A DNA stretch of 37,332 nt from a virus, in the IMG/VR virus record IMGVR_UViG_3300025669_000931, positions 1 through 37,332 of that record; one strand, written 5' to 3'. Below, piece after piece: positions 14,076 to 35,497 of the stretch (the first letter of the stretch is position 1; each line of letters begins with the position of its first letter). Position numbers and translations under genes: made by a program. The notes under the pieces are model-generated. The model was not told the DNA's origin. It searched no databases and saw only the letters and a list, made by a program, of their open reading frames with translations.

Positions 14076-14085
14076 TTCTCTCCTT

Positions 14086-15207: not shown

Positions 15208-15221
15208 TCTTTACTCCTCAT

Positions 15222-15410: not shown

Positions 15411-15428
15411 TTTCAAACCCTCCTATAT

Positions 15429-15440: not shown

Positions 15441-15923
15441 TCCGTTTTGCAGTGCCCATCTGATTTGCCCGAATGATCTCCGAATGTCATGCCAGCCCCA
15501 TCCTTGTTCCCGAAGATAATTTACAACCTTCATCCGCATTCCCTGCTTTGTGGTGGTGCTGAACATGTCCGGGTTTTCCAGTATAACCTTACAGATTTCT
15601 TTTGCTTTGGGTTTAAGGGATTCGATCAGGTCAATTAGTTCTAATGTTTCCAGGGTTGTGTTTTCATTAACAGGTTCCGGGATGTCCGGTTGCCCGAATC
15701 CCACTGTACTTTTCTTTCTGGATATGTAATTTATCAAATGATTCTTGATAACCCAGTATGCATATGTGGTAAATTTTGCTCCATTGTCCGGATCGAATTT
15801 GTTCAGAGCAATGGAATAAGCCAAGGATGCTTCACCGATCAGATCGTCAATATCAAGTCCCGTTTTCATGAATGACCATGCGAGTCTTCTGATTAAATTC
15901 ATTTGTACTTGTTCTTTTTCCAT
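15438..15923 (-). CDS. Small sigma-70-like factor (region 2)
   Basis: The N-terminal half has a sigma region 2 pattern. LDIDDLIGEASLAYSIALNK (about 23-42) matches the core-binding region 2.1-2.2. FTTYAYWVIKNHLINYISRK (about 51-70) matches the -10 recognition and melting regions 2.3-2.4. The C-terminal half is less clear but ends in a short helix-turn-helix-like segment. The length of 161 residues is small for a sigma factor. It could direct host RNA polymerase to phage promoters such as the repeated TAGGTGTATAAT sites, one of which overlaps its own stop codon. A general region-2-like DNA-binding protein is the alternative. Confidence 0.72.
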   Translation of the reverse strand: MEKEQVQMNLIRRLAWSFMKTGLDIDDLIGEASLAYSIALNKFDPDNGAKFTTYAYWVIKNHLINYISRKKSTVGFGQPDIPEPVNENTTLETLELIDLIESLKPKAKEICKVILENPDMFSTTTKQGMRMKVVNYLREQGWGWHDIRRSFGQIRWALQNG

Positions 15924-15944
15924 GATTAGGATTTCCTTTCCTGA

Positions 15945-18902: not shown

Positions 18903-19049
18903 TTATTCTTCCTCTTCAAATTCAAAAGTTTCACCACAGCTTCGACAAACGGGTTCATTGTTTTCAGTGAATTCGGTAAAGTCCGTTCTCCATTCATGTT
19001 GACAATGGGGGCAAGTGACCGTTTCAAAAAAAGTGTTATTGAATGTCAT
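18903..19049 (-). CDS. Small zinc-ribbon protein, 48 residues
   Basis: I translated this short gene directly. It starts MTFNNTFFETV and has two cysteine pairs, CPHC at residues 13-16 and CRSC at 35-38, spaced as in a rubredoxin-like zinc ribbon, and ends in a run of glutamates. The ATG at 19049 has AAAGGAGATTGGAA directly upstream, the same site used by the 60-residue gene. It is very short, but the clean ribbon and the ribosome site support it. Confidence 0.66.
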   Translation of the reverse strand: MTFNNTFFETVTCPHCQHEWRTDFTEFTENNEPVCRSCGETFEFEEEE

Positions 19050-19062
19050 TTCCAATCTCCTT

Positions 19063-19281
19063 TTAAACAGCAAAATTTCCGGTGCGGTGACTATATAATC
19101 CTTTTGCTATGATTTCCCCGGTGCTGGAAATCCCGTAAACAATTTGCCATTTCCGTTTATTAATAATGTTTGCCATGAAAGCGGTAATTGTGATGTCCCG
19201 TTTTGAATAAGCCCAAAGTTTTTTGTCGGCTTGATCTTGCATTGCTTTTTTCATTTCATTTGGAATTGTTTGGTAATTCAT
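19063..19281 (-). CDS. Hypothetical protein, 72 residues
   Basis: From the ATG at 19281 the protein starts MNYQTIPNEMKKAMQDQADK. An alpha/beta segment W-Q-I-V-Y-G-I-S-S-T-G-E-I near residue 50 follows. I do not recognise it. AAAGGAGATTTGAA precedes the start, and a GC-rich hairpin (GCCCTC, loop, GGGGGC) lies before that. A longer open frame exists upstream but runs through the hairpin and lacks a better site. Confidence 0.65.
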   Translation of the reverse strand: MNYQTIPNEMKKAMQDQADKKLWAYSKRDITITAFMANIINKRKWQIVYGISSTGEIIAKGLYSHRTGNFAV

Positions 19282-19313
19282 TTCAAATCTCCTTTCATGC
19301 CCCCTTTTGCGAG

Positions 19314-19330
19314 GGCGGGTTGTGGGTTTA
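19314..19330 (-). repeat. 17-base repeat, copy B
   Basis: This is identical to 17995-18011. It overlaps the stop codon of the 52-residue gene and leads into the hairpin in front of the 72-residue gene. Confidence 0.7.
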
Positions 19331-19486
19331 ATCAGCGTTTGAACATTCTGCCTCATGTAATTCTGCGGCGAGCTGGGACAGAGCTTCTGCTATTTGCTTT
19401 TTCGTGTATTTACAAATGTCTTCAATATCCATGTCGTAAATTTCCATGTAATCTTTGCGGGCTAGTTTGTATTTCGTGTTTGACAT
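19328..19486 (-). CDS. First early gene, 52-residue hypothetical protein
   Basis: From the ATG at 19486 the protein starts MSNTKYKLARKDYMEIYDMD. An acidic amphipathic helix (I-A-E-A-L-S-Q-L-A-A-E-L-H-E-A-E) near the end follows. I do not recognise it. AAGGAG stands seven bases upstream. It is the first gene after the strong early promoter, a position often held by host-takeover or regulatory peptides, but nothing in the sequence shows such a role. Confidence 0.6.
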   Translation of the reverse strand: MSNTKYKLARKDYMEIYDMDIEDICKYTKKQIAEALSQLAAELHEAECSNAD

Positions 19487-19520
19487 TTGGTTTCTCCTTT
19501 TTTGCGGTGTTTTTGATTTC

Positions 19521-19549
19521 ATTATATAAGGTCCGAAAACAAATGTCAA
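19521..19549 (-). promoter_or_regulatory. Strong sigma-70 promoter for the minus-strand block
   Basis: TTGACA (19544-19549) and TATAAT (19521-19526) on the minus strand match both consensus hexamers exactly, with a 17-base spacer. The first start codon is about 28 bases after the predicted transcript start. This is the main early promoter candidate. Confidence 0.88.
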
Positions 19550-19653
19550 CACTTATTTTCATTTTTTTAAACTTTTTTAAAAATAAATACATATATATTT
19601 CATTAATTTACAAACCCATCCTCCCCATCCCAAATCTTTATCTAAATAAAACC

Positions 19654-19683
19654 TTGTTTTCATTCATATTTTAATAATAAAAT
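19654..19683 (+). promoter_or_regulatory. Possible promoter for the plus-strand block
   Basis: TTGTTT (19654-19659) and TAAAAT (19678-19683) are 18 bases apart in an AT-rich region before the terminase genes. The match is modest, and other AT-rich hexamers are nearby. A phage-specific or late promoter cannot be excluded. Confidence 0.3.
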
Positions 19684-19712
19684 ATCAACAATGGAGGCGT
19701 CATAAAAACATC

Positions 19713-20234
19713 ATGAAACGAACCAAATTCAACGGAACATCAAACCAACCCTCAATTCCCATAAAGAAAGTAAAGAAAGAGCTATGGGAAATCGCTCTAG
19801 ATAATTTCAAACGTTCTGTAGGAAAACCTCGTATATTCCCAACCCCCGAACATATGCTCCGAGATTGTACTGAATATTTCCAGTGGGTAAAAGACAATCC
19901 TCTATATGAAACAAAAGCATTCGCCTACCAGGGAATGATTACCCAGAATAAAGTACCGAAGATGCTCGTTATGACATTAACAGGTTTACAACTGTATGTT
20001 GGCATTACAGCACAAGGGTGGATAGACTATAGAAGTAAGGTAGAATATCTTGAAGTCATGGAACATATTGAGTCCTGTATTTATCATCAAAAGTTCAGTG
20101 GAGCCGCAGCAGATTTACTGAATGCAAACATCATAGCAAGGGATTTAGGACTCAGGGATTCCAAGGAAATAACAGGCAAGGGTGGTGGACCTCTTTCATT
20201 TAGCGTTACGGTGGGGGAGGACGATAATGGCTGA
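19713..20234 (+). CDS. Terminase small subunit (P22 gp3-like)
   Basis: The small terminase recognises phage DNA and starts packaging. The 173-residue protein has the pattern F-P-T-P-E-H-M, C-T-E-Y-F-Q-W near residue 52, A-M-T-type T-L-T-G-L near 88, and the signature FSGAAADLLNANIIARDLGL at about 130-149, known from gp3-type DNA-packaging proteins. The start at 19713 is chosen from the frame. The nearest GGAGG (19693-19697) lies 15 bases upstream, an unusually long spacing. That GGAGG follows a tiny ATG ORF (Met-Glu-Ala-Ser). The stop overlaps the large subunit start by eight bases. Confidence 0.88.
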   Translation: MKRTKFNGTSNQPSIPIKKVKKELWEIALDNFKRSVGKPRIFPTPEHMLRDCTEYFQWVKDNPLYETKAFAYQGMITQNKVPKMLVMTLTGLQLYVGITAQGWIDYRSKVEYLEVMEHIESCIYHQKFSGAAADLLNANIIARDLGLRDSKEITGKGGGPLSFSVTVGEDDNG

Positions 20235-21474
20235 TGTAAATGTCAAGATCCTTCCTAAAGTATTTAATCCAGTTTATCTTCCATATGTAAATGATCCAAC
20301 CCGTATTCAAATCTTCTTTGGTGGTTCCTCTTCCGGGAAGTCCTATTTCCTGGCACAACGTCATATTAAGGATGTAATGAATGGCCGAAATATCCTATCA
20401 GTTAGAAATACCGGGAACAGCATCCGAAAGTCCTCATTCAATGAAATCCGTAAAGTCATATCTAAGTGGAACTTAAACGAATATTTTAGCATTAACAAGT
20501 CGGACATGTATATGACATGCAGGAATGGCCGGCAGATATTGTATAGTGGTTTGGATGATACTGAAAAGCTGAAATCCATTACCCCGGAAGATTCCGTGCT
20601 GACAGACATTCATATTGAGGAAGCTACGGAAACTCAGGAAACTGATGTTAAACAACTGGAGCGCCGGCTTAGAGGTGAGGCGGATTTTCCTAAACGGATT
20701 TCTTTCTCGTTTAATCCAATTCTGAAAGCTCATTGGATATTCAAGAAGTATTTCACTGGCTGGGAAGACGGGGCCAGGGAATTGCGGAAGCCTGGTATCC
20801 TGATCATGCATACCACGTATAAGGACAATCAATTTCTGGATGATGCGGATCGGGAATTGCTGGAATCAGAGAAAGATCCTTACTGGCGAGATGTATATAC
20901 CCTCGGTAAATGGGGAACGCTCGGGGATGTTATCTTTAAGAACTGGAAAATTGAGGATCTTTCCAAGGAAACTCATTTCGATAATATCCGGAACGGTCTT
21001 GATTTTGGGTTCGGTGCTGATCCAGCGGCGTTTGACCATATGCATTATGACAGGAAACATAAACAGCTTTTCTTTCTTGACGAATTCAATGCACATGAAC
21101 TGACAAACCCGCAACTTGCGAAGGCAATTAAACCGATTGTTAAGAATCAGAGGGTGGTTTGTGATAGTTCAGAACCGAAAAGTATCAGGGAACTTCAAAC
21201 ACAACCTTTGGAACACCGGATTTTTGCTGTGGGAGCTAAAAAAGGCCCGGATAGTGTGAATTTTGGTATTCAATGGATGCAGCAACAGGAAATTATTATT
21301 GATCGAAAATGCCAGAATGTGATTAATGAGTTCCAGGCGTACCAATGGAAAAAGAATCATGCTGGGGAAACCCTGAATATTCCGATTGATAAAAACAATC
21401 ATCATATAGACGCAGCTCGGTATGGTTGTGAGGATTGTATGGAAGAGCGGAAAGTTGCTGGGAGAGTGATATAA
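20227..21474 (+). CDS. terL: Terminase large subunit
   Basis: This is the ATP-driven packaging motor and nuclease. Walker A is GGSSSGKS at about residues 32-39. A Walker B region IHIEEATE follows near 120-127. The nuclease domain begins with G-L-D-F-G-F-G-A-D-P near 251, continues with V-V-C-D-S-S-E-P-K-S near 310, and ends with an H-H-I-D-A-A-R-Y-G-C segment, the usual last acidic motif. The type resembles PBSX/Terminase_3 enzymes. I chose the ATG at 20227 with GGGAGG upstream. The open frame also includes a GTG 15 codons earlier inside the small subunit gene. Confidence 0.95.
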   Translation: MADVNVKILPKVFNPVYLPYVNDPTRIQIFFGGSSSGKSYFLAQRHIKDVMNGRNILSVRNTGNSIRKSSFNEIRKVISKWNLNEYFSINKSDMYMTCRNGRQILYSGLDDTEKLKSITPEDSVLTDIHIEEATETQETDVKQLERRLRGEADFPKRISFSFNPILKAHWIFKKYFTGWEDGARELRKPGILIMHTTYKDNQFLDDADRELLESEKDPYWRDVYTLGKWGTLGDVIFKNWKIEDLSKETHFDNIRNGLDFGFGADPAAFDHMHYDRKHKQLFFLDEFNAHELTNPQLAKAIKPIVKNQRVVCDSSEPKSIRELQTQPLEHRIFAVGAKKGPDSVNFGIQWMQQQEIIIDRKCQNVINEFQAYQWKKNHAGETLNIPIDKNNHHIDAARYGCEDCMEERKVAGRVI

Positions 21475-21609
21475 TGAAAACCTTATGCGCCTGTCAGTGG
21501 ATGACGACTGTGTGCTTGGTTCGGACCGAATGCGGACCAGATGTGAGTGTGAAGAGCATAGCATAAACCACGGTGGAAGATGAGAAACGGGGCGCATAAT
21601 TAAATAAGG
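21475..21609 (+). other. 135-base gap closed by a 9-base inverted repeat, candidate structured RNA
   Basis: TTATGCGCC (21483-21491) and GGCGCATAA (21591-21599) can close the whole segment as a long-range stem. Inside are smaller hairpins such as GTCA/TGAC, and TGGT/ACCA enclosing TTCG/CGAA. Two short ORFs also fit: a 30-residue frame from ATG 21474, which overlaps the terL stop, and a 34-residue frame from 21485. Neither is recognised. The gap lies in an otherwise tightly packed packaging region. I cannot decide between a structured RNA and a short peptide. Confidence 0.4.
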
Positions 21610-21618
21610 ATGATTAAA

Positions 21619-23022
21619 ATGGCAGAATCAACAATAGCAGAATTACAAGGTAAACTCCAAAACCTTGAAGCACTACAAGGAACGATGATTTCCAGGATTG
21701 AGCACTTTTCCCGGCTTGGATATCAGTTTGATGGTGACCGGGATCTTTATGAAGCTCTTGGGTATAAAGTGGTTTTGGACGGTAGTGATTATTACGCACA
21801 GTACAAACGGCAGGATATCGCCAATGCCATTATCAACAAACCCATTTCGGCAACCTGGCGTGGTCCTGTCAGAATTATTGAGTCGGATGATGATGAGGAA
21901 ACAGCTCTTGAAAAAGCCTGGGTTGATATGGAAAAGGAATTGCAACTCAAATCCAAGTTCAGCCGATTGGATAAGCTGGTTGCTCTTAATTGTTATGCTG
22001 TTTTGTTTTTGGGATTCAATGATGCGCAGAACTCAACAATGTTTCAAAATGCCGTTGCTCCAGGTAACCGGGAATTACTTTATGTTAAGCCGATTGCAGA
22101 ACAGAGTGCTCAAATTGCTACGTGGGAAAAGGATGTAACCAATCCAAGATACGGCCTCCCGGTATTGTATAAAGTATCTTTGATTCAACCGGGTGGGATT
22201 TCAAGTACGGAAGTGCTGGTCCATCATACAAGGATTCTCCATGTGGCTGGTGAGGATTTGCTTGATAATGATTTGGAAGGTTCGCCGAAGCTTGAAGTTG
22301 TTTTCAATCGTCTTAAAGATTTGGAAAAGTTGGTAGGTGGGAGTGCTGAAATGTTTTGGCGCGGGGCCCGTCCTGGGTATGCCGGAAAGGTTGATCCGGA
22401 ATTTCAAATGACACCGGAAACTAAAGCTGATTTGAAAGAACAGATATCCGAATACGAACACAACCTTAGACGCATTCTTGTTAATCAAGGTGTGGATCTT
22501 CAGGCTTTAGCAATGCAAATCGCGGATCCACAAAATCATGTGGATGTCCAGATTCAAATGATATCAGCGGTAACGGGTATCCCCAAACGGATCTTGACTG
22601 GAAGTGAGCGTGGTGAATTGGCGAGTACGCAAGACCGGGATAATTGGTTTGATTTGGTGCAGAGTCGTAGGGAGGAATATGCAGAGCCACGTATTATCCG
22701 ATTACTCGTTGATCGGTGTATGGAATATAAGGTGTTGCCAGAGCCCGTGGATTCTTACACAGTGGAATGGGCAAGTCTTTATGAGCAAAGCGATGCGGAT
22801 AAAGCTAATGTTGGGAAAACCAGATCTGAGGCATTAAAGAATTATGGATCATCTCCGACAAATCAAGATATCATTCCGCCGGAAGCGTTTATGAAACTGC
22901 TTTTGAATCTCACAGATGATCAAGTTGAACTAATCAATGAACAAAGGGAACAGGCGATTAATGATGAAGAAGCGGATTTTGAGGAAACTGAAATTATAGA
23001 TACCGAGGAGGAAGTGAAATGA
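21619..23022 (+). CDS. Portal protein (DUF1073-like)
   Basis: The portal forms the dodecameric DNA gate of the head. The 467-residue protein has the pattern Y-K-R-Q-D-I-A-N-A-I-I-N-K-P near residue 62, W-R-G-P near 80, and V-H-H-T-R-I-L-H-V-A-G near 200. A conserved C-terminal half follows, with I-P-K-R-I-L-T-G-S-E-R-G-E-L and Q-D-R-D-N-W-F near 320-345, as in DUF1073-type portals. The acidic end is typical. The ATG at 21619 is preferred over 21610 because AAGG then has normal spacing. The stop overlaps the next start. Confidence 0.88.
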   Translation: MAESTIAELQGKLQNLEALQGTMISRIEHFSRLGYQFDGDRDLYEALGYKVVLDGSDYYAQYKRQDIANAIINKPISATWRGPVRIIESDDDEETALEKAWVDMEKELQLKSKFSRLDKLVALNCYAVLFLGFNDAQNSTMFQNAVAPGNRELLYVKPIAEQSAQIATWEKDVTNPRYGLPVLYKVSLIQPGGISSTEVLVHHTRILHVAGEDLLDNDLEGSPKLEVVFNRLKDLEKLVGGSAEMFWRGARPGYAGKVDPEFQMTPETKADLKEQISEYEHNLRRILVNQGVDLQALAMQIADPQNHVDVQIQMISAVTGIPKRILTGSERGELASTQDRDNWFDLVQSRREEYAEPRIIRLLVDRCMEYKVLPEPVDSYTVEWASLYEQSDADKANVGKTRSEALKNYGSSPTNQDIIPPEAFMKLLLNLTDDQVELINEQREQAINDEEADFEETEIIDTEEEVK

Positions 23023-23390
23023 AAAAGATAGGGCTTATGTTCATGCTTATGGTTTTGGTTTTGATGTTTTTGTCTGTTCCCGTGTTTGCGAAGAGCGTGA
23101 CGCAGACGATAGCGGCCGCACCTCCAGTCGCAGGCATATGGACTTCTCAGCTTGCTCCTTTGCAGGGGTCTGGAAATGGTTACATGAATATCGGGGTATA
23201 CGGGGTCACGTGGTCCGGGACTGTTTTTCTTCAACGAAATTTCCAAAGTACAGGTTGGGTAGATGTAACATCATTTACCAGTAATACCCAAAAAGCCTTG
23301 TTGGATAAAGAGAGCGGTGTCGCTTATCGGATCGGCATTAAGACTGGCGGATATACCTCAGGGTCTGTCGCAGTTCGGTTGAGTAATTAA
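23019..23390 (+). CDS. Exported small beta-sandwich protein
   Basis: This 123-residue protein has a clear Sec signal peptide (M-K-K start, hydrophobic residues 5-20, cleavage after V-F-A near residue 24). The mature part has the pattern Y-M-N-I-G-V-Y-G-V-T-W-S-G-T-V-F-L-Q-R-N-F, F-T-S-N and a Y-R-I-G-I-K-T-G-G-Y-T-S-G-S-V-A-V-R-L end. Sandwich domains of this look occur in phage structural and receptor-binding proteins. The start overlaps the portal stop by four bases. The signal peptide is unusual for a virion protein. Confidence 0.75.
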   Translation: MKKIGLMFMLMVLVLMFLSVPVFAKSVTQTIAAAPPVAGIWTSQLAPLQGSGNGYMNIGVYGVTWSGTVFLQRNFQSTGWVDVTSFTSNTQKALLDKESGVAYRIGIKTGGYTSGSVAVRLSN

Positions 23391-23402
23391 AGGAGGGATA
23401 TC

Positions 23403-25238
23403 ATGAAACGATTTAATCTTATTCTTTTGCCCATTATCTTTTTCTTCCTTTCCAGTTTTGCAATTGCCGGGGATCTTGATGGGGTCGGTATTCTGGGCAT
23501 TCAGTCTGATGCGGACTTCTCAAGTGCCGTAGTGGTTGCCAAGAGCGGCGGTGACTATACAACTATACAAGGTGCCCTTGGTGTTGCGGCTGTAGGGGAC
23601 ACAATCCTAGTTTATCCTGGGACATACACTGAAACGCTCACGATTGCAGATAACAACCTGACAATCATCGGCATGGGGAAACCAGGGACGGTGATCGTGA
23701 CCCAGCCCGACGCCAATGTGGTGAATGGGTCAACGTTTACGGGCGTGCAGTTCAAAAACATGAAGTTTCAGGTGACGGCGGCAACTACAGCGATTAACAC
23801 GGTGCAAGTGTCAACCGGGTTGCTTTCATTTAAGGAATGTCAATTATCCATGACCTCTGCCGCTGCTATTGTGGCTTCCACCCAACCGGCAGTTGGTGCT
23901 TGTACTGGAATCGGAACGCTTGAAGTGAAGTTTGGCAAGGCGTTTTATTATCATACCGGCGCGTGTGGCGGGGGCGCTATCAAGTCCGCTTTCACAGTCG
24001 CAAACGGTGGTGAAATACATCTGGACTTTCTCCATGACATCACAATTACAAACAGCGGAACGGCGCTGGCATCTTCTCTGTGTGTTGATGCGGGTACAGG
24101 CATTATTGAAATGCACGATTGTGATTTAACCCTGACCGACCCCAATGCGACTATCGTGGCGGGTATGGGTTATCTGGGTGGAACCGGGACAACCCATGAG
24201 TTTATGCGGAATGAAATTCATGTGGTGGCTACGGCCAATACTGGATACGGATTCTTCGCCAGCGACACGGCATCGACCACAAGGACCTTTTACAACCATA
24301 TTCATGTTGAAGACACGGGCGGAAGTTCATACTCGTTCTCCATAGCTGCTTCTGCAACGGTTGTTTCGCACTTTGACGATATTATTTCTGACAATGGCGT
24401 GACTGGCGCCGGAACATTCACTCAGGTTTCAAGCCAGAATGATGGGGCTTTGACAGCTACCGGAGCCGTATCTGCTGAGTCTTTAACCATAACCCCTTCT
24501 GCCCTGCCTTCGGTGGTATTTGATGACAGTGACGGTGCGGATGGACTCATTTATGTAAACGCGAATGATGCTGATGATGCTGTCATGTATCTGAGTGTTG
24601 ACGATTCAAACGGTGATGATCAAGTTTATGTTGAACTCGATGGGGTGAATGAGCAGGTTGAATTAAAATATAATACCCTTGTGGCTGGTCGGCTTTCTGC
24701 CACTACCTATGGCTCTGATGGTTCCGTGTCTGATGCGGAATTGCTTTATATTAACACCCTTTCCAGCAATGCCCAGACGCAGCTCGACGCAAGGGCATTG
24801 GAAAGCGTGGTTGGTACATCCATCGGCAACGGCCTTAGATTAGACGGAGCAGTCTTGAAGGCGGATAGGGATTTCTCAAGCCAGGCCTACACTGCGTCCG
24901 GGAACATTAGCGCGGCGCATATCTTAGCAAACAAATTCCTTACTAATTACGGCGAGGATGCCGCTGAGAATGATTTAGTTTTGCCTGATATTGAATATTA
25001 TGCGGGTGTTATTTTCATTATTGAAGCAGCGTATAATATAGAAATCAATCCTCCTAACGCTGATGCTCATGAAGCACTTGACCTTGATGGCACTACCTTG
25101 GACGCGAGTTATTGCGTTGATAGTGATTCAACGATAGGGAGTAAAATTGTAGCGACCCGTGTGCATTTAGCCGGTGGTTGGAAATGGTCCTTGGATACTA
25201 TAAGAGGTGTTTGGACTGATACCGGCGCCAGTGATTAA
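23403..25238 (+). CDS. Exported beta-helix fibre-like protein
   Basis: This 611-residue protein has a signal peptide (M-K-R-F start, hydrophobic run I-I-F-F-F-L, cleavage after A-I-A near 22). Residues about 40-320 look like a right-handed beta helix of the pectin-lyase type: G-G-D-Y-T-T-I-Q-G-A-L near 50, D-T-I-L-V-Y-P-G-T-Y near 65, then repeated short strand-turn rungs. A C-terminal part contains DAELLYINTLSSNAQTQLDA, a segment type often seen in phage tail-fibre-like proteins. It may bind or degrade surface glycans. AGGAGG-type spacing before 23403 supports the start. Confidence 0.78.
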   Translation: MKRFNLILLPIIFFFLSSFAIAGDLDGVGILGIQSDADFSSAVVVAKSGGDYTTIQGALGVAAVGDTILVYPGTYTETLTIADNNLTIIGMGKPGTVIVTQPDANVVNGSTFTGVQFKNMKFQVTAATTAINTVQVSTGLLSFKECQLSMTSAAAIVASTQPAVGACTGIGTLEVKFGKAFYYHTGACGGGAIKSAFTVANGGEIHLDFLHDITITNSGTALASSLCVDAGTGIIEMHDCDLTLTDPNATIVAGMGYLGGTGTTHEFMRNEIHVVATANTGYGFFASDTASTTRTFYNHIHVEDTGGSSYSFSIAASATVVSHFDDIISDNGVTGAGTFTQVSSQNDGALTATGAVSAESLTITPSALPSVVFDDSDGADGLIYVNANDADDAVMYLSVDDSNGDDQVYVELDGVNEQVELKYNTLVAGRLSATTYGSDGSVSDAELLYINTLSSNAQTQLDARALESVVGTSIGNGLRLDGAVLKADRDFSSQAYTASGNISAAHILANKFLTNYGEDAAENDLVLPDIEYYAGVIFIIEAAYNIEINPPNADAHEALDLDGTTLDASYCVDSDSTIGSKIVATRVHLAGGWKWSLDTIRGVWTDTGASD

Positions 25239-25253
25239 AGGAGCAAGCGACTG

Positions 25254-26612
25254 ATGATGAAAAAACTATTCTTAACAATCTTGTTGGTCTTGATGCTGCC
25301 TGGGTGGGCTTGGGGTGCTGTCTACTATGTAGACAAAACCACAGGTGATGATAGTGACACGGGCTTGACCGAAGCTTTGGCGTGGGAGACATTAGCAAAA
25401 GTTGAGTCGTTTGGAGCGGGTACTGAATTTACCGCCAACGACCAGATATTGTTAAAACGTGGCGAGACGTGGGTTGAAACTCTGAAATTGTACGGGACAG
25501 GAACAAGTGGCAATGTCGTCACTTATGGTGCCTATGGAGCAGGAGTTGACCCAATTATAACGAGAATCTACCACCGAAACGCAATGCACGGGAATGTTGC
25601 TGGAAGTAATGAGTATGTAACCGTTGAAAACATGAGAATTAGTAACGGTGCAGGGATTGGTGGTGATATTAAAACAATTAATTATCTGACACTCAAAGAT
25701 TTATACATTTATGATTGTAGTGATAGAGGTATTAGTGTTGGTGATGAAGTTGGAGGCATGACAGGTTTTACGGTCCAAGATGTTGAAATTGATAATAGTA
25801 CTGGCTTTGGGATTATATTTGACCAAGTTGTAACTAGCGTTTTGTTAGAAAGGGTCGTTGCACATGACGGAGACAGGGATGGTATAAACGCTAGGAGTGC
25901 GACAAGTGTTATCGTGAGAGATTGCGTCACTTATAACAATGTCGAAGATGGTTTTGATGCAGGTGGAGTTTCTGGGACTGTACTATTTGACAGATGTTTA
26001 GCCTACGACAACACATCGGCGGGTTTTTCAGCCAAAGCCACTAATGTGGCAGTCACGGTCACATATGATAATTGCATTGCTTATGGTAATAATGAAGGAG
26101 TTGAGACAGGGAACACTTGCAATGTTAATATTCATAATAGTACATTTTATGACAATGACAAAATAGGAATATACCTGACGAATGATGACACTTTCATCGT
26201 CAAGAATAATATTATTTTTGGAAATGGGGAAACTCCCGCAGTAGATGGACTCCAGGTTTCATATTTAGTTGCAGGTCAGACTTTAACTGCGGATAACAAT
26301 TTTTATGGCGTTCACTCATTAGGACGTTCCATTTACCTTTCTGATGAAGCCGCATTTAAAACTTTTGCTGAATGGCAGGCTTGGGATGGGGGGGCATATG
26401 GTCAAAATAGTCTGAGTGGAGACCCACTCTTCACCAACGCAGCCGGGGACGATTTCACCCTCAAACCAGGTTCCCCAGCACGTAATTCCGGCGACACAAG
26501 CATATCCTCAACCAGGATAAAACCTGGTTCAACCTGGCCGGATGGAGTAGTAACAATGACAGATAAAACCATCGGGGCTTACGGGTCCATGCGCGGTGCT
26601 GCGGGGCAATGA
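25254..26612 (+). CDS. Exported right-handed beta-helix protein (polysaccharide-lyase-like)
   Basis: A signal peptide (M-M-K-K, hydrophobic core L-T-I-L-L-V-L-M-L, cleavage near W-G-A at 22) is followed by YYVDKTTGDDSDTGLTEALAW, the usual opening of extracellular beta-helix proteins. Repeated rungs follow, with asparagine-rich turns such as V-T-V-E-N-M-R-I-S-N, D-N-S-T-G-F-G-I and V-I-V-R-D-C-V-T-Y-N-N. A C-terminal D-P-L-F-T-N-A-A-G-D-D-F-T-L-K-P-G-S-P-A-R-N-S-G motif is typical of such proteins. It probably acts on or binds polysaccharide. The start at 25254 has AAAGGAG about nine bases upstream. The stop overlaps the next open frame. Confidence 0.8.
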   Translation: MMKKLFLTILLVLMLPGWAWGAVYYVDKTTGDDSDTGLTEALAWETLAKVESFGAGTEFTANDQILLKRGETWVETLKLYGTGTSGNVVTYGAYGAGVDPIITRIYHRNAMHGNVAGSNEYVTVENMRISNGAGIGGDIKTINYLTLKDLYIYDCSDRGISVGDEVGGMTGFTVQDVEIDNSTGFGIIFDQVVTSVLLERVVAHDGDRDGINARSATSVIVRDCVTYNNVEDGFDAGGVSGTVLFDRCLAYDNTSAGFSAKATNVAVTVTYDNCIAYGNNEGVETGNTCNVNIHNSTFYDNDKIGIYLTNDDTFIVKNNIIFGNGETPAVDGLQVSYLVAGQTLTADNNFYGVHSLGRSIYLSDEAAFKTFAEWQAWDGGAYGQNSLSGDPLFTNAAGDDFTLKPGSPARNSGDTSISSTRIKPGSTWPDGVVTMTDKTIGAYGSMRGAAGQ

Positions 26613-26629
26613 TGAAAAGGAGTTACAAA

Positions 26630-27997
26630 ATGAACAAACTACATAAAGGAATTCTAATAGCTCTGTTAATTACGCTACCGTTCTGGGGTTGGGTTGGGTC
26701 TTACGCTTGGGGTGCAACACTGGAAGGGGTTACGCTTTCAGGCGTGACAGTAAACCCCAACATGCCAAGCTGGTGGTGGCCACTGGAGAAAGACCTTGTT
26801 TCTACATCAAGTTCGGATACCTACATTGGCACCGTAACCCATGCAGGAACAAACCGCACAAGGGTCAACCCTGACACCGGCCTGATTGAAGCTGTGGGCG
26901 CTAATGTAGCACGTTTTGAGAGCGTTGGTGGGCATCTGGCAACCCTCATCGAACCGGCAGGGACGAATCTGGTCCCGTTCTCCGAGGAGTTTGATAATGC
27001 GGCTTGGACGAAAACCAGAGCTACGATTTCGGCTGATGCGGTTGTAGCGCCTGATGGGACTTTGACGGCTGATAAATTGGTTGAGGATGCTACGGCTGCG
27101 AATAGTCATGGAATGAAGGACACAGTTGCCAAAGAATCATTCACTGACAATTCCGATGTGACATTTTCCGTGTATTTGAAGCCGGAGAGTCGAACTTGGG
27201 TTAGATTGCAATTAGTAACAAAGGCCAGTGGATACAAGAGCGCTTATTTCAATCTTGCAACTGGTGCTGTTGGGACTCAGAATGTTGATGATTATGGGTC
27301 TGAATCTATAAGAGATGGTTGGTGGCGATATTGGGTTACAATGGACATCGGTAGTGGAGCAACTAACCCAAGTTTCTTTATTACACTGGCCGAAGCCAAC
27401 AACGACATTACCATAGACGGCGACGGCACCTCCGGCTTCTACATCTGGGGCGCAATGGTTCAAGAAAGCCCCGTGCCGACCTCCTACATAGCCACCTCCG
27501 GAGCCGCTGTCACCCGTGCCACAGAATCAGGTGAGCCGCACTTCACGCTCCCTCCGGATTTGTTTGATAGCGAGGGGACGGCTGTGGTTTGGTGGCGGCC
27601 TGGGTATTCAAAAGCAGATGTAACTACTAGAAGTGGAATAGTTGCAATAGCATCTGGTTCTAATAATTTTTCATACCATACTAATGTAGGACAGCTTAGG
27701 TCAAAAGATGACGTAACCGATGCCACCAATGACGCAAATTTTACCGTCAACACCTGGTACAAACTAATAGTCAAATGGGGTTATCTTGTAGCCGGTGTGG
27801 AGAAATTCCGTGTTGGTGTGGACTCAGGAAGCGGGGTTGTTTGGGGAACGGAAGCCACGTTTGATGGCTCCTACAGTCTCGGCACTTACCTCCGCCTCGG
27901 CTACGGCTTATTCGGCCCAATGCACATGAGGCAGCTTTCGCTGTTTCCCACGGTGCTGACGGATGCGGAGATTGACGCATGGACAGGAACACCATGA
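26630..27997 (+). CDS. Exported laminin-G/concanavalin-like protein
   Basis: The ATG at 26630 has AAAAGGAG at normal spacing and begins a signal peptide (M-N-K-L-H-K-G-I-L-I-A-L-L-I-T-L) with cleavage near A-W-G-A, about residue 28. Two sandwich-like regions follow: one around 100-280 with N-L-V-P-F-S-E-E-F-D-N-A-A-W-T-K, as in carbohydrate-binding modules of phage proteins, and a laminin-G-like region from about 310, ending in the typical L-S-L-F-P-T-V-L-T-D-A-E-I-D-A-W-T-G. It may bind surface glycans. A longer frame from 26609 lacks a ribosome site. Confidence 0.75.
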   Translation: MNKLHKGILIALLITLPFWGWVGSYAWGATLEGVTLSGVTVNPNMPSWWWPLEKDLVSTSSSDTYIGTVTHAGTNRTRVNPDTGLIEAVGANVARFESVGGHLATLIEPAGTNLVPFSEEFDNAAWTKTRATISADAVVAPDGTLTADKLVEDATAANSHGMKDTVAKESFTDNSDVTFSVYLKPESRTWVRLQLVTKASGYKSAYFNLATGAVGTQNVDDYGSESIRDGWWRYWVTMDIGSGATNPSFFITLAEANNDITIDGDGTSGFYIWGAMVQESPVPTSYIATSGAAVTRATESGEPHFTLPPDLFDSEGTAVVWWRPGYSKADVTTRSGIVAIASGSNNFSYHTNVGQLRSKDDVTDATNDANFTVNTWYKLIVKWGYLVAGVEKFRVGVDSGSGVVWGTEATFDGSYSLGTYLRLGYGLFGPMHMRQLSLFPTVLTDAEIDAWTGTP

Positions 27998-28116
27998 TAA
28001 TGCCCCTAATAGACGCCATCCTGCTAACCATCCTGATTGTCTTGCTGTGGAATATCAGGACGATTATCGACTTGTGGTGCCGGTGGCGGAACAGCAAGGA
28101 TAAAAGGATATTTTAA
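27994..28116 (+). CDS. Small membrane protein, 40 residues
   Basis: I translated this short gene directly. It starts MIMPLIDAILLTILIVLLWN, giving one membrane segment over about residues 5-20. A basic tail follows with W-C-R-W-R-N-S-K-D-K-R. It overlaps the preceding stop as ATGA and is followed without gap by the next gene. A holin-like or anchor role is possible, but not shown by the sequence. Confidence 0.6.
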   Translation: MIMPLIDAILLTILIVLLWNIRTIIDLWCRWRNSKDKRIF

Positions 28117-28449
28117 ATGATGAAAAATATAATCTTGGCAATCGTAATCTTGATGTTTTCCGCAACGCAGGCACTCGCTGATGATGTGAAACTCAAATGG
28201 GACCCTACGATAAACGCGACCGGGTACAAGATATATTCCAGTCAGGATATGGGGAAGACCTGGGACACCGGTATTGACACCAACGGGGCCACAGAATACA
28301 TCATGATGGGCGTTTCGGACACGGGCAAAGTGTTGTTCAGGGTCTCGGCTTATAACGAGCATGGAGAAGCGGTTCGGTACACGGCAGGTGTGTGGTTTTG
28401 CGGTAGCTGCGCACCTCCTCTCGCACCTTCCGGCGTAGGTATAGAGTAA
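28117..28449 (+). CDS. Exported fibronectin-III-like protein
   Basis: This 110-residue protein has a signal peptide (M-M-K-N start, hydrophobic I-I-L-A-I-V-I-L-M-F, cleavage after A-L-A near 21). One fibronectin-III-like domain follows: V-K-L-K-W-D-P-T-I-N-A-T-G-Y-K-I-Y, then V-L-F-R-V-S-A-Y-N-E-H-G-E-A. The end has C-G-S-C-A-P-P and may form a disulfide. It is the last of five signal-peptide genes. The region just after its stop contains a short unexplained frame in the same phase. Confidence 0.78.
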   Translation: MMKNIILAIVILMFSATQALADDVKLKWDPTINATGYKIYSSQDMGKTWDTGIDTNGATEYIMMGVSDTGKVLFRVSAYNEHGEAVRYTAGVWFCGSCAPPLAPSGVGIE

Positions 28450-28516
28450 TGGGTATGACACAGATGCTATGGGGAGTTAATCGAGTGGGATGTGTATGGC
28501 ACACGGATAAAAATTA

Positions 28517-29398
28517 ATGGCCGAGCTACAACTACAATCGTCAATCCAGATTCTCCAAACGTATAATAATTTTTATGTTTATTGTCTTCATAGACCAGAT
28601 AGGCGTGATCCTTTAACTTTGACAGTTGGGCAACCATTTTATGTTGGTAAGGGAAGTAATGGACGTTTATCCGATCATCGGCATGAAGCTGAAAAACTTT
28701 TACATACACCTGGAAGAAAAATATACAAAATCAACATTATTCATTCTCTTTGGAAACAAGGGCTAGATTTTAAAGAGGTGATTATTAAAAATAATTTGAC
28801 GGAACAAGAAGCCTTTGCCATTGAGAAACGCTTAATCAAGATATATGGCCGGGTGAACATGCAGACAGGATGTCTTTCAAATATGACCGATGGTGGGGAT
28901 GGTCCAGCAGGCAGGATACCATGGAATCAAGGGGTTCCGCGCTCAGAAAAAGTAAAGCAAAAAATAAGAGAAACAAATCTTGGAAGAGTTTTAACAGAAG
29001 AACATAAAAGAAAAATAGGGCAAGGTTGTAAAGGGAAAGTATCTTGGATAAAAGGTAAAACCCACAAGGAAGAAACCAAAAGAAAAATAAGTCAGACTTT
29101 AAAAGGTGTTGCGTGTCCGGCAAGAGGGAAACCTTGTTCAGAAGAAAAAAAGGAAAAGCTCAGAAAGTCACTGAAGGGTAGACCCAAAGAGTTAACCCTA
29201 GCACAACGAAAAGCAAAGAGTGATAGGATGAAAGGGAACAATTTTAATGTAGGCAGGCGTCATTCAGAAGAAACAAAGCAAAAAATGAGAAAAGCACAGA
29301 TGGGGCATGCTGTTTCAGATGAATCACGGCAAAAAATGAGTGATGCTAAAAAAGGATATATCCCGTGGAATAAAGGGAAGAAACTTTGTAATGGGTAA
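28517..29398 (+). CDS. GIY-YIG homing endonuclease with NUMOD3 repeats
   Basis: The N-terminal nuclease domain shows F-Y-V-Y-C-L-H-R-P near residue 18, F-Y-V-G-K-G-S-N-G-R near 42, and the catalytic glutamate in A-F-A-I-E-K-R near 100. The C-terminal part has several NUMOD3 motifs, such as H-S-E-E-T-K-Q-K-M-R-K-A-Q-M-G and T-E-E-H-K-R-K-I-G-Q, which bind DNA. Such enzymes spread into intergenic sites. The gene is richer in A and K codons than its neighbours and sits between the signal-peptide cluster and the MuF gene, so it is probably a later insertion. Its end overlaps the MuF start. Confidence 0.92.
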   Translation: MAELQLQSSIQILQTYNNFYVYCLHRPDRRDPLTLTVGQPFYVGKGSNGRLSDHRHEAEKLLHTPGRKIYKINIIHSLWKQGLDFKEVIIKNNLTEQEAFAIEKRLIKIYGRVNMQTGCLSNMTDGGDGPAGRIPWNQGVPRSEKVKQKIRETNLGRVLTEEHKRKIGQGCKGKVSWIKGKTHKEETKRKISQTLKGVACPARGKPCSEEKKEKLRKSLKGRPKELTLAQRKAKSDRMKGNNFNVGRRHSEETKQKMRKAQMGHAVSDESRQKMSDAKKGYIPWNKGKKLCNG

Positions 29399-30995
29399 GC
29401 CCGCTTTAATTAATATTGATTCTAGTGTTTCTGTGTTTATGGCTCATAGAGATCCGACAAGGACAACGACTCTCCGGAATCAATTTGCATCTGAGATGGG
29501 TCGGAAGTTCAAATGGCTTCGGGGTCAGATCAGGAAAGCTGTAATTGATCGGGATTGTTTTGGATTGAAAAATAAGCAGGCTTTCCCAAATGTTTTTCAA
29601 TTACCGAATCACAGGGAATTCAATTTTATACGAGATGCCGCAAAGTTAAATGCTTTTGAACAATGGTTGAATGAACAGATTGAACAAGGGATTTTAGAAA
29701 CATTCAGATCACCTCAATTGGGCAGTGGTATTGAGGATGTCTGGACAAATAGATATATCCAAACTTCATATCAAAAAGGGATTGTCCGGGCAAGGAATGA
29801 GCTGAGAGCGGCTGGTATTAAAGATCTCGGTGGAATGGAAATACCTTCACTTGGGACTGATACTGCAATTCAAACGGCATTCAATCAGCCATCCCATTTG
29901 GATCGTGTTGGTTTGTTGTATACCCGAGTGTTTAATGATCTGAAGGGTATCACGAATAATATGGATGCGCAGATCAGTCGGGTGCTTGCGCAAGGGATGG
30001 CGGATGGAAAAGGACCGTATGAAATTGCTGAATTATTGACAAAGACGATTAGTGGACCTGTCGGGGATCTGAGTTTAACCGATACTTTAGGCCGATTTAT
30101 CCCTGCTGAAAGAAGGGCAAAGATCCTAGCCAGAACAGAAATTATTCGAGCGCACCATGCAGCTACAATCCAAGAGTACAGGAATTGGGGATTAGAAGGG
30201 GTGAAGGTTAAAGCGGAATGGACGACAGCGGGGGATTCGAGAGTTTGTGAAAGGTGCAGAGCACTACAAGGAAAAGTATTTACATTGAAACAAATTGAAG
30301 GGAAGATCCCACTTCACCCTCAGTGCCGATGTATAGCTTTACCAGTGGTTGCTGATGGGGAGAGAGAAGAATCCCAATCAATTATTCGTATTCGCCGTCC
30401 TTCTAATTCTATAAAGGTCGAGGCTGTCACAGGTGTTCCGAGGGAGCATGTTTTAAAAATCCAAAAATTAACAAATGATTTACCTGTAAATTTGAGATCT
30501 GCATTGTTACAAACAGGATATAAAATTAAAGCGGCAAACTTTTTAACGGATGGGTTTCCAAAATTAAAAGGGAAGCACCCGCGGGGTTGGTCAAAAGGGT
30601 CAACTTGGGATAATGTGGATGGGCTACATGACCCATCCACGAAAGTTGTCCTTTCCGCTTACCGGTATACTACCCCACATTCTACGATGTCAAGGGTAAG
30701 TAATAGAGTTAATTATGTATTTCACCATGAAGTTGGGCATGGTTTTGATTTCACGGCAAAAGGGCAGATATATAGTTCTCGTTCTGTATTTCGAAGAGCG
30801 TATAAAAGTGATGTTAAGAAAATAACAAGTCAACGGAAAAAAGAAATTAATTATTTTTTACAAGCTGGGGGTGCCGGCCCGAAAGAGATTTTTGCGGAGA
30901 TTTTTGCTAATCTGATGGGCGCTCCAGGACACATGGAAATTTTGAATGACTTTCCAAGAGTTACCCAATACGTTAAGGAGGTTTTGAAAATATGA
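29391..30995 (+). CDS. MuF-type head protein with C-terminal metallopeptidase-like domain
   Basis: The central part is a phage Mu F/SPP1 gp7-like minor head protein: A-R-T-E-I-I-R-A-H-H-A near residue 248, then C-E-R-C-R-A-L-Q-G-K-V-F and H-P-Q-C-R-C near 285-315. The C-terminal ~180 residues are separate and carry HHEVGHGFD, with H446, E447 and H450 as a zinc-peptidase HExxH motif. A glutamate in P-K-E-I-F-A-E-I-F-A near 500 is a likely third ligand. MuF proteins with variable C-terminal toxin or enzyme domains are known. I chose the ATG at 29391. The frame is open 17 codons earlier inside the endonuclease gene. Confidence 0.85.
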   Translation: MGKPALINIDSSVSVFMAHRDPTRTTTLRNQFASEMGRKFKWLRGQIRKAVIDRDCFGLKNKQAFPNVFQLPNHREFNFIRDAAKLNAFEQWLNEQIEQGILETFRSPQLGSGIEDVWTNRYIQTSYQKGIVRARNELRAAGIKDLGGMEIPSLGTDTAIQTAFNQPSHLDRVGLLYTRVFNDLKGITNNMDAQISRVLAQGMADGKGPYEIAELLTKTISGPVGDLSLTDTLGRFIPAERRAKILARTEIIRAHHAATIQEYRNWGLEGVKVKAEWTTAGDSRVCERCRALQGKVFTLKQIEGKIPLHPQCRCIALPVVADGEREESQSIIRIRRPSNSIKVEAVTGVPREHVLKIQKLTNDLPVNLRSALLQTGYKIKAANFLTDGFPKLKGKHPRGWSKGSTWDNVDGLHDPSTKVVLSAYRYTTPHSTMSRVSNRVNYVFHHEVGHGFDFTAKGQIYSSRSVFRRAYKSDVKKITSQRKKEINYFLQAGGAGPKEIFAEIFANLMGAPGHMEILNDFPRVTQYVKEVLKI

Positions 30996-31174
30996 CTTTC
31001 TTTATCACAGAAATAACATCTGACAAGATTGGGATTCGTGCTTTAGCGGAAGGTCCGGGCGGGATGATAGGAGATGGAATTTGGGATATCATGCCAGGTG
31101 AATTCTTTCTCGAATTTTATTTTGATGAATTAACAAATCTTGGAGTTGGTCAGCATGAGAGTGTGGAGCAATAA
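30992..31174 (+). CDS. Small acidic protein after MuF, 60 residues
   Basis: I do not recognise this acidic protein, which starts MTFFITEITSDKIGIRALAE and contains G-D-G-I-W-D-I-M-P-G-E near 27-37. It overlaps the MuF stop by ATGA and has TAAGGAGG upstream of its start at 30992. Because it directly follows a gene with a peptidase-like C-terminus, an inhibitor or immunity role is conceivable, but this is only inference from position. Confidence 0.55.
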   Translation: MTFFITEITSDKIGIRALAEGPGGMIGDGIWDIMPGEFFLEFYFDELTNLGVGQHESVEQ

Positions 31175-31175
31175 A

Positions 31176-32615
31176 ATGAAACCAATAATTTATCAAACAA
31201 TAAAAGTTAACAATTACACGCCGGAAGTCAAATTGCATCAAGGACGAAAGCATCTTGTTGTTCCGGTTGTGATGATGATAGAAGGTGTTCACAATGGGAG
31301 CAATGGCGCAATATTCCATTCCGCTGATGAATTATCCAGACATGTAGGATCATGGAATGGAATTCCCATTGTTATTCAGCATCCAGCAGAAGACGGACAG
31401 GCAATATCGGCCAATTCCCCTGATGTAATTGATCGGGAAAGAGTTGGTCGTGTTTATAATACTCGTTTCGAATCAGGCAAGTTAAAGGCGGAAGCTTGGC
31501 TGGATGAAACGCAGATGGGCCATGTATCACTGGAAGCCTTTACTTATATCCGAGATAAAAAACCCCTTGATGTTTCAGTCGGGGTTTTCACGGATGATGA
31601 GGTAATCGAGGGAACATGGAACAATGAAGCGTACACTGCAATTTCAAGAAATCATAGACCGGATCACCTTGCTCTCCTGCCTGGTGGAGTAGGTGCATGT
31701 AGTTGGTCTGATGGTTGTGGTGTGCGGGTAAACTCGAAAGGGGGTGATGATTTGACCCAGAAAGAACAGCACTTAATTGAGCTGATTAAGAATTACGAAT
31801 CTGGGATGAAAGAAAAAATAGAAACACTTCAACAAAAGCTTGATCAGATGGATACGAATTCCGTAATGCATTTCCTTGAGGAAGTTTTCAAGGGGCATTG
31901 TATATACAGGATTTCTAAAGATATTGGGGAAGGCATCCCGATGGAGCAGGAATATTATAAACGCGTGTATTCCATGAATGCGGATGGTCTGATTGAGTTT
32001 AGCGGGGAGCCGATTCCCGTGCGAAAAAAGATCGAATATAAACTCATTAACAACAATGCAAAAGGAGGGACAGGAGAAATGGCTGATAAGAAAGAGAAAA
32101 AACCCTGCTGTGAGGAAAAGGTGAAAATCCTTGTCCAGAGTAAAGGGTTCACTGACAAAGATCAGGATTGGTTGTCCGGACTTGAGGAAAGTCAGATTGA
32201 CAGCTTGATTGCGGTCAATGTTCGGGCAGAGAAAGTCCCGAAGGAAAAGGTGGTGGAAAAGGAAGTGCCGGTCCAAATGAATAAGGAACAACTGGCGGCT
32301 TATATGAAAGAAACCTTTTCCAGTCCGGAGCAGTTTATGGCAATTTTGCCGGATGATTACAAAGCACAAATGACGCATGGGATGCAGCTTTATCAACAGC
32401 ATCGGGATGGTTTGGTTGCTAGAGTCAAGGAAGCCGCACCGGATGTTTATTCCGATGCAGAGTTGACCGGAATGGATATGTCAGCCCTGGAAAAGCTCAC
32501 TCGGTTGATTCCGAAGACCGCTGATTATTCCTTGAATGGGAATCCCCCGGCGCCTGTGATTAATGCAAATGAAGTTAAACCCTTGCTTCCGCCTGGCGTG
32601 AAGGAAGCAGAATAA
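31176..32615 (+). CDS. DUF2213-like prohead protease with scaffold-like C-terminus
   Basis: The N-terminal ~170 residues resemble DUF2213 proteins: L-V-V-P-V-V-M-M-I-E-G-V-H near 26, W-N-G-I-P-I-V-I-Q-H-P near 60, and E-R-V-G-R-V-Y-N-T-R-F near 85, the prohead protease type. The middle has a coiled segment (K-E-K-I-E-T-L-Q-Q-K-L-D-Q-M). The C-terminal half is charged with V-P-K-E-K-V-V-E-K-E-V-P, as in scaffold proteins. The ATG at 31176 has GGAG seven bases upstream, directly after the small acidic gene. It precedes decoration and capsid genes, as expected for a protease-scaffold. Confidence 0.75.
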   Translation: MKPIIYQTIKVNNYTPEVKLHQGRKHLVVPVVMMIEGVHNGSNGAIFHSADELSRHVGSWNGIPIVIQHPAEDGQAISANSPDVIDRERVGRVYNTRFESGKLKAEAWLDETQMGHVSLEAFTYIRDKKPLDVSVGVFTDDEVIEGTWNNEAYTAISRNHRPDHLALLPGGVGACSWSDGCGVRVNSKGGDDLTQKEQHLIELIKNYESGMKEKIETLQQKLDQMDTNSVMHFLEEVFKGHCIYRISKDIGEGIPMEQEYYKRVYSMNADGLIEFSGEPIPVRKKIEYKLINNNAKGGTGEMADKKEKKPCCEEKVKILVQSKGFTDKDQDWLSGLEESQIDSLIAVNVRAEKVPKEKVVEKEVPVQMNKEQLAAYMKETFSSPEQFMAILPDDYKAQMTHGMQLYQQHRDGLVARVKEAAPDVYSDAELTGMDMSALEKLTRLIPKTADYSLNGNPPAPVINANEVKPLLPPGVKEAE

Positions 32616-32636
32616 AGAAAAGGAGGTATTTGAATA

Positions 32637-33113
32637 ATGGCTTACAATACGATTAAGCTGAAAAGTTATGTGGACAACATTGTTGAGAAGGTTGCGAATG
32701 CTGCAATTACTCCCGGGATGCTGATTGAACTTATGAGTACCGGCAAAGTCCGAGCACATGCAATTGCGGAAGGAAATGCGGTTACGATGTTTGCCCTTGA
32801 GGATGAATTGCAAGGGAAGGCAATTGGTGACAACTATGCTGCAGCTGCTCAGGTTCAGTGCTGGAATGCTGTTCCCGGGGATGAAGTTTATGCGATTCTC
32901 GCGGATGGGTACGATGCCGATATTGGGGATTTCCTGGTTTCGAATGGAGACGGTTATTTGAGAACCCATACCGGAGAAATTCAATCTGAAGCGGAAGCGA
33001 CTGCCCAGATTGTCGCACAAGCACTTGAAGCGGTTGATACTTCGGATTCGAGTGGCGGTGAATCTAGCGGTGCTTTGGCATACGCGAGACGGATTAAGGT
33101 CCGAATCAAATAA
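32637..33113 (+). CDS. Head decoration or stabilisation protein
   Basis: This 158-residue protein has a beta-rich pattern: P-G-M-L-I-E-L near residue 26, A-E-G-N-A-V near 45, and a repeated acidic turn D-G-Y-D-A-D-I-G-D-F-L-V-S-N-G-D-G-Y near 90. A serine-glycine-rich linker precedes a basic end. Small genes of this type directly before the major capsid gene usually encode decoration (capsid-stabilising) proteins. AAAGGAGG precedes the start. The family assignment is by position and look only. Confidence 0.65.
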   Translation: MAYNTIKLKSYVDNIVEKVANAAITPGMLIELMSTGKVRAHAIAEGNAVTMFALEDELQGKAIGDNYAAAAQVQCWNAVPGDEVYAILADGYDADIGDFLVSNGDGYLRTHTGEIQSEAEATAQIVAQALEAVDTSDSSGGESSGALAYARRIKVRIK

Positions 33114-33141
33114 TAAAACTTGAAAGGAGGTACAAACAGAT

Positions 33142-34233: not shown

Positions 34234-34279
34234 AATAACAACTTCTAATCAAGGAGTTTCTTAAAAGGAGTTCATAATC

Positions 34280-35496: not shown

Positions 35497-35497
35497 T

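Follow-up and report, generated by a model that had tools for sequence, protein, structure and literature searches.

A virus genome fragment examined here contains a cassette of five genes, inserted between the portal gene and the head genes, whose predicted products combine Sec-type signal peptides (SPs) with mature parts that resemble virion adhesins. The window, that is, the whole stretch of DNA analysed, is a single linear IMG/VR record of an uncultured tailed virus of bacteria (IMGVR_UViG_3300025669_000931, positions 1 to 37,332; 37,332 nucleotides (nt)). The explanation that we tentatively favour is that these are attachment proteins of the fibre, spike or lectin type diverted into the Sec pathway, and that they most likely bind the particle at lysis. 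This proposal draws, at the level of sequence, on the SPs themselves, the coupling of the genes to the portal gene, the homology of the mature parts to virion adhesins, and the recurrence of such proteins in unrelated phages, with and without SPs; that the proteins are exported and cleaved, that this happens late and where they end up on the virion are what we infer. The open reading frames (ORFs) of the cassette, hereafter named by their start positions, are the following (lengths in amino acids (aa)):

23019-23390, plus strand: 123 aa; SP (predicted cleavage after residue 24) followed by a beta-sandwich phage module of about 99 aa
23403-25238, plus strand: 611 aa; SP, AGDLDGVGILG head, probable beta helix and, by eye, a fibre-like C-terminus
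25254-26612, plus strand: 452 aa; SP and right-handed beta helix (PF13229)
26630-27997, plus strand: 455 aa; SP, Rcc01080-like body (aa 86-301) and a C-terminal part under a phage tail-protein profile
28117-28449, plus strand: 110 aa; SP and Fn3/Ig-like domain

Gene calls and gene starts were made with our own script, and SPs were recognized with a home-made test that considers the charge of the n-region, an uncharged hydrophobic stretch, and small residues at the cleavage site (positions -3/-1). All five cassette ORFs pass, each with a positive n-region, a hydrophobic core and an AXA-like site; the cleavage sites predicted for 23403, 25254, 26630 and 28117 follow residues 20, 19, 26 and 19, respectively. 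A ribosome-binding site (RBS) precedes each of the five ORFs; for 26630, the longest frame begins at 26609, and 26630 is the RBS-backed start. Among the other 38 gene calls of the window, one is positive (Fisher p = 6e-6 against five of five). The presence of five SP-bearing proteins between the portal and head genes, put forward in the sequence-only reading, is thus borne out by a calibrated test, and so is the proposal that Sec-type signals mark adhesin- or polysaccharide-type proteins within the head operon. The single other positive (13779-14075, minus strand) is a 98-aa lipoprotein-like ORF with a lipobox-like N-terminus (LSGC) and no match in Pfam.

The test was calibrated on 42 genes of E. 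coli K-12, with localization labels that we assigned from annotation and recall. The strict rule accepted none of 19 cytoplasmic proteins, 1 of 12 membrane proteins, 6 of 9 exported proteins or lipoproteins, and neither of the two proteins of unsure place. The lenient rule passes 3.3% of residue-shuffled window N-termini and yields false positives, for instance in locus L101 and among decoration proteins, so the stricter rule was used for counts where stated. Among 838 genes from portal-family loci (80 aa or longer), 17 pass the strict limits, including all four homologues of 23019 and 23403. Even the lenient rule accepts no portal (0/80), capsid (0/33) or protease (0/47) gene there, and it accepts 4 of 43 decoration proteins. 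The first 40 residues of 23019 are very hydrophobic and 45% of its own shuffles pass the lenient rule, so that the case for an SP in this protein is carried by the orthologues: across four of these, identity is 30-48% in the SP region compared to 63-69% in the mature part, and the SP design is kept in each. Across 213 loci, SP genes adjoin one another 36 times against 3.7 expected; this test is weak because some loci were fetched using SP proteins as queries and others were dropped for overlap or redundancy. The Sec-type export tags on the five proteins look genuine.

The mature parts look, by homology, like virion adhesins. The AlphaFold model of 23019 (pLDDT 91) is a beta sandwich of about 99 aa, with the N-terminal segment modelled as a helix. 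Its best structural alignments are to XepA (VIA Z 10.1) and YomS (Z 9.8), with the next row at 8.2. Foldseek found no match for the model in the PDB at E <= 0.001 and 24 in a viral library at the same threshold, the named ones being uncharacterized phage proteins. The domain occurs in 78 ORFs from 76 loci, mostly as proteins of about 93-108 aa without an SP or within tail-type proteins of about 850-1400 aa. SP-bearing orthologues are present in three contigs (L002, L004 and L015) and homologues without an SP in dozens of phages; a tree of the module implies at least two SP changes, with too few columns to date them.

The AGDLDGVGILG head of 23403 is shared with an otherwise different SP protein of L002. 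The protein has a weak pectinesterase match near its start and no relative among 50,697 phage records or in the viral scan. We considered GDLDGVGILG as a general anchor and rejected this idea: of the four viral stretches with the motif, only the L002 contig resembles the window, and the other three, from viruses without such a likeness, encode it in enzyme-like genes. The right-handed beta helix of 25254 was confirmed (PF13229, E = 1.7e-23), with weak matches to the K1 lyase (PDB 7w1c; local, E = 3e-5) and to an alginate epimerase. Residues 86-301 of 26630 align with residues 60-275 of Rcc01080, the head-spike fibre of the gene transfer agent RcGTA (E = 3.9e-36), and more weakly with one tail fibre, one triplex and one baseplate protein; 348 phage records contain relatives by tblastn, and annotations as tail or structural proteins are frequent among the matches listed. 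The three isolate homologues examined (S-CAM4 192, P12024L_10 and RcapMu58) all lack an SP. The Fn3 domain of 28117 is weak in Pfam (E = 0.054, under the cut-off); the protein is Ig/Fn3-like, resembles the C-termini of major tail proteins, and has an SP-bearing Fn3-like relative in L104 (32% identity). Of the extracellular-type domains proposed initially, then, the beta helix stands and the Fn3 domain is weak by profile and matched by the L104 relative, whereas the laminin-G domain assigned to 26630 has no Pfam match, its body being RcGTA head-spike-fibre-like instead.

The hydrophobic N-termini could also be uncleaved anchors, or membrane tethers, used in virion assembly. Cytoplasmic assembly would fit this explanation, an N-terminal helix could stand in for the usual fibre anchor, and AlphaFold indeed places a helix at the N-terminus of 23019. 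However, AXA-like sites lie shortly past the core in all five proteins, the segment diverges faster while its SP features persist, unlike a protein-protein anchor, and the same N-terminal feature precedes unrelated folds. We consider such an anchor improbable.

SPs are also present on some target proteins of diversity-generating retroelements (DGRs). The second SP gene of L002 encodes a 592-aa protein that is 53% identical to a protein without an SP in L194, a contig with a phage of the same portal family, from a genome in the phylum of locus L180 (see below). L194 carries a complete DGR, namely, the target, a small accessory gene, a template repeat that matches the variable repeat at 94 of 113 bases, and a reverse transcriptase (RT)-like gene. 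In L002, a fragmentary contig of 19.9 kilobases, no RT or template repeat of its own was found. A viral scan with this target family yielded 54 loci and 49 ORFs by blastp, seven of which bear an SP (L204, which is L002, L207, L208, L220, L229, L234 and L239). For 34 of these 49 ORFs the locus also contains an RT homologue, as in L207, L208 and L234, where the RT follows the target.

The SP status of a target goes with that of its neighbour: the upstream gene has an SP in 6 of 7 cases when the target has one and in 2 of 33 when it does not (p = 5e-5; 40 ORFs kept under slightly looser SP limits, after removal of near-duplicates, of ORFs shorter than 350 aa, of genes standing first in their locus and of cases with the neighbour on the opposite strand). 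The one exception among the SP-bearing targets is L239, where the closest call upstream, of 72 aa, has no SP. A tree of 39 rows, six of them SP-bearing, from which short or distant rows including L239 were left out, requires at least four SP changes, three of them forced by well-supported branches. The clearest pair consists of L234, with SP and RT, and L249, without an SP: the two targets are 65% identical over residues 29-660, nearly the whole mature protein, and the neighbours are colinear, with homologous genes at positions -2, -3 and -4 and a -1 gene that, like the target, is SP-bearing in L234 but not in L249. Near-full-length identity and colinear neighbours imply that the protein was kept when the SP was gained or lost. 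Phage adhesins thus appear to switch between cytoplasmic and exported forms.

The positions of SP-bearing targets vary. In L208, which also contains an integrase, the target follows the tape measure, tail assembly and tail protein genes and a small tail-fibre-like gene; in L220 it follows the head protease and major head protein; and in L207 it lies two genes after the portal, much as in the window. L207 also encodes, near its head and neck genes, a 348-aa SP-bearing protein (14691-15737) that is head-decoration-like by eye and has no PHROG match.

The same collection bears on the possibility that the SPs are products of chance or of gene calling, that is, meaningless hydrophobic N-termini. 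The home-made character of the test and the decoration proteins matched by the lenient rule speak for such an artefact. Against it are the RBS-backed starts of all five cassette ORFs, the clean result for E. coli cytoplasmic genes, the SPs kept in orthologues, and the observation that 40 DGR-type ORFs without an SP (at least 350 aa; three are open at the 5' end) do not gain one from any alternative start. We regard this explanation as very improbable and already largely refuted.

Beyond the DGR targets, the SP pattern recurs in unrelated phages. L104, a siphophage contig as judged from its tape measure gene (PHROGs), encodes, after the tape measure and tail-end genes, SP-bearing relatives of 23019 and 28117 along with SP-bearing proteins of 186, 440 and 546 aa. 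A 1129-aa protein in the same run has an SP-like start, which the rule marks as a possible transmembrane (TM) segment, and a weak match to Rcc01080 (E = 0.008). In L180, a locus from a metagenome-assembled genome of Desulfarculaceae, an SP-bearing 23019-type gene follows a 560-aa gene that, by eye, resembles a podovirus connector. L180 belongs to the four loci retrieved by a genome scan with the 23019 family; of the three listed gene by gene, it is the one with an SP. Among genomes of its phylum, the 23019 profile matches 2 of 395, the portal profile 1 of 395 and the DGR-target profile 1 of 390. Directly before the SP run, three loci encode a short protein without an SP (L208, 7021-7350; L096, 7113-7430; L104, 7357-7806), with a fibre N-terminal domain recognized by PHROGs in L208 and by eye in the other two, an arrangement that would suit a cytoplasmic base followed by distal parts that are exported.

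Within the portal family, the SP insert is unusual, yet it is retained in the nearest relatives. We examined 84 portal-family loci, in 65 of which both the portal and the MuF gene are visible. The two genes adjoin in 43 of these and are separated in 22, with an SP gene between them in three (L002, L018 and L042). Four more loci have an SP gene after the portal and no MuF gene in the locus (L004, L015, L008 and L010), L008 and L010 sharing the same SP gene of 546 aa. As to gene order in relatives, which the sequence-only reading named among its checks, the SP-bearing 23019 orthologue lies directly or one gene after the portal in the nearest relatives, L002, L004 and L015. L042 encodes a 109-aa SP protein at the position where L018 has a relative without an SP (42% identity), and in L058 and L021/L022, SP-bearing fibre-like genes lie on the opposite side of the portal.

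In the window, the cassette is embedded in a plus-strand order of small terminase, large terminase, portal, the five ORFs, a homing-endonuclease-like gene, MuF, DUF2213, decoration and capsid-type genes:

19713-20234, plus strand: small terminase (phrog_606, E = 2e-46)
20227-21474, plus strand: large terminase (Terminase_3; Pfam E = 3e-45)
21610-23022, plus strand: portal protein (Phage_portal_3 / phrog_146); its end overlaps the 23019 start by 4 nt
28517-29398, plus strand: GIY-YIG/NUMOD3 homing-endonuclease-like gene, beside the cassette and not part of it; overlaps the MuF start by 8 nt
29391-30995, plus strand: MuF-like head morphogenesis protein (PF04233, E = 8e-15), the right border of the insert
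31155-32615, plus strand: DUF2213 / protease-scaffold-like protein
32637-33113, plus strand: head decoration protein (phrog_766)
33142-34233, plus strand: major capsid-type protein (phrog_771, phrog_264)

The region after the capsid gene (34804-37331, plus strand) encodes a protein of phrog_4603, a family that bears the name sialyltransferase, then a zinc alcohol dehydrogenase and then an ORF resembling E1 dehydrogenases and transketolases; L002 retains at least the first two of these in the same order. A GTP cyclohydrolase I (6075-6941, minus strand; PF01227, E = 2e-58) may have a role in 7-deazaguanine DNA modification. The window has no recognized DGR target. Outside the window, L005 encodes a 1364-aa MuF fusion (12381-16475) in which inserted domains are flanked by repeated linkers of the GSGNFGHAGRPGAVGGSGGG type.

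This layout bears on the alternative that the five are lysogenic-conversion ('moron') genes by which a prophage decorates its host, like the surface-displayed DGR targets of bacteria. The G+C content of 0.45-0.49 across the SP cassette (22501-28500), compared to 0.39-0.43 directly upstream, suggests acquisition, L208 contains an integrase, and cellular DGR targets usually have SPs or TM segments, according to the portion of PMC8144416 consulted. The cassette is nonetheless tightly joined to the portal gene, with intergenic gaps of 12, 15, 17 and 119 nt following the overlap; positions 19000-37332 contain 33 promoter-like sites and 10 resembling terminators, numbers no higher than in shuffles (37.5 and 16.7); and no integrase was identified among the window genes profiled, which are not all of its genes. 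We hold a moron origin to be quite unlikely.

Two fates of the cassette proteins would fit the evidence: they join particles after export or at lysis, or they stay off the particle; we favour the first. Under the favoured explanation, the five genes would share their late expression with the portal and head genes; the products would be exported via SecYEG, cleaved by signal peptidase and folded outside the cytoplasm; and lysis would bring periplasm and virions together, allowing post-lysis decoration of the head or tail and giving sugar-binding appendages on the particle. This fate is preferred because a continuing role in recognition is suggested both by the conservation between the L234 and L249 proteins over nearly their full length and by the retention of RTs. 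The sequence-only reading had left a choice between exported effectors and virion proteins that keep the signal; the evidence leans to virion-type attachment proteins, given the head-spike-fibre and tail homology, the relatives without SPs and the SP-bearing versions at receptor-binding-protein positions.

The main rival holds that the proteins are exported adhesins that never join the virion. Whether periplasmic, displayed at the surface or set free by lysis, they would cover receptors or polysaccharide of the dying cell and of cell debris, prevent superinfection, loosen the exopolysaccharide or serve as soluble lectins. The SPs come without any recognized virion-retention signal, 25254 is weakly similar to a polysaccharide lyase and an epimerase, and the fold of 23019 resembles XepA and YomS, which belong to lytic cassettes of B. 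subtilis prophages, XepA being titled 'exported protein' in PDB entry 6i56. Still, several SP proteins occupy receptor-binding-protein positions and are near-complete homologues of phage proteins without SPs, and the adjacent RTs of L207, L208 and L234 fit evolving host recognition. This decoy model seems to us somewhat unlikely, the uncleaved anchor and lysogenic conversion being less likely.

Several points weigh against attachment to virions after export. Tailed virions assemble in the cytoplasm. The three isolate homologues of 26630 lack SPs, the searches made revealed no SP-bearing version in any cultivated phage, and cultivated phages gave no match to 23403, 23019, the 159-aa protein of L208, the 257-aa protein of L022 or the 1129-aa protein of L104. 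Cysteine parity, considered as an independent sign of export, was rejected for want of a signal: among 101 SP proteins, 20 have no cysteine, 37 an even and 44 an odd number, with no even-number bias and hence no sign of disulfide folding. Since none of the evidence comes from complete contigs, a conventional cytoplasmic fibre could be encoded elsewhere. Finally, fibres usually attach by the N-terminus, where the SP sits, as exemplified by residues 2-10 of Rcc01080 in the part of PMC10218006 consulted.

The sequences suggest that some viruses may export their attachment proteins from the cell while the particle is still unfinished. More speculatively, some tailed phages might mature outside the cytoplasm, with Sec-exported recognition proteins, in places still diversified by RTs, being added to completed particles either in the periplasm or once the cell has lysed, and with export status as a switchable trait of whole adhesin cassettes; this is conceivable, and we advance it with considerable reserve. 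If phage fibres can be exported, adsorption, debris binding, superinfection control and the annotation of secreted virome proteins need rethinking; the absence of SPs has been used, in the section of PMC6199706 available, to support the phage origin of variable proteins. Pairs of the L234/L249 type, the same protein and neighbours with and without an SP, make the question of export directly testable.

Among the results listed by searches of the open-access literature, there was no report of SPs on tailed-phage fibres, which does not prove that none exists. Filamentous phages have virion proteins, pIII and pVIII, that are synthesized with a Sec SP and lose it by cleavage; their particles assemble in the membrane by extrusion, whereas the present phages are tailed. 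Beta-helix tail spikes such as the K1 lyase share the right-handed beta helix with 25254, which adds an SP. XepA and YomS, described in PMC6834076 (consulted in part), share the fold of the 23019 module (root-mean-square deviation 2.3 over 92 residues for XepA and 3.6 over 97 for YomS), but the likeness is at the fold level only, given the 11-16% identity in structural alignment, and they differ from 23019 in belonging to lytic cassettes and in having a Gram-positive host. The RcGTA head-spike fibre Rcc01080 (PDB 6tb9), which the passages seen of PMC10218006 tie to capsular-polysaccharide binding, resembles 26630 over the fibre body; its N-terminal residues anchor it to the spike base, whereas 26630 has an SP there and a further C-terminal part, and the alignment, which begins at residue 86 of 26630 and 60 of Rcc01080, does not reach the anchoring segment. 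Accordingly, 26630 may work like an RcGTA head-spike fibre without being one.

The DGR targets of phages, such as the tail fibre of BPP-1 and the target of Hankyphage, are alike in that the 592-aa SP protein of L002 is homologous to the target of a complete DGR and that RTs are kept next to SP-bearing targets. Phage DGR proteins are said to lack SPs in the part of PMC6199706 consulted, unlike the 7 of 49 target-type ORFs found here, and the excerpts seen of PMC8144416 give tail-structure predictions for viral targets. The surface-displayed DGR targets of Legionella and Treponema, covered in the same excerpts, are adhesin-like and exported, as predicted here, but they are cellular genes, with lipoprotein-type export in Legionella, whereas those described here are phage genes within structural blocks.

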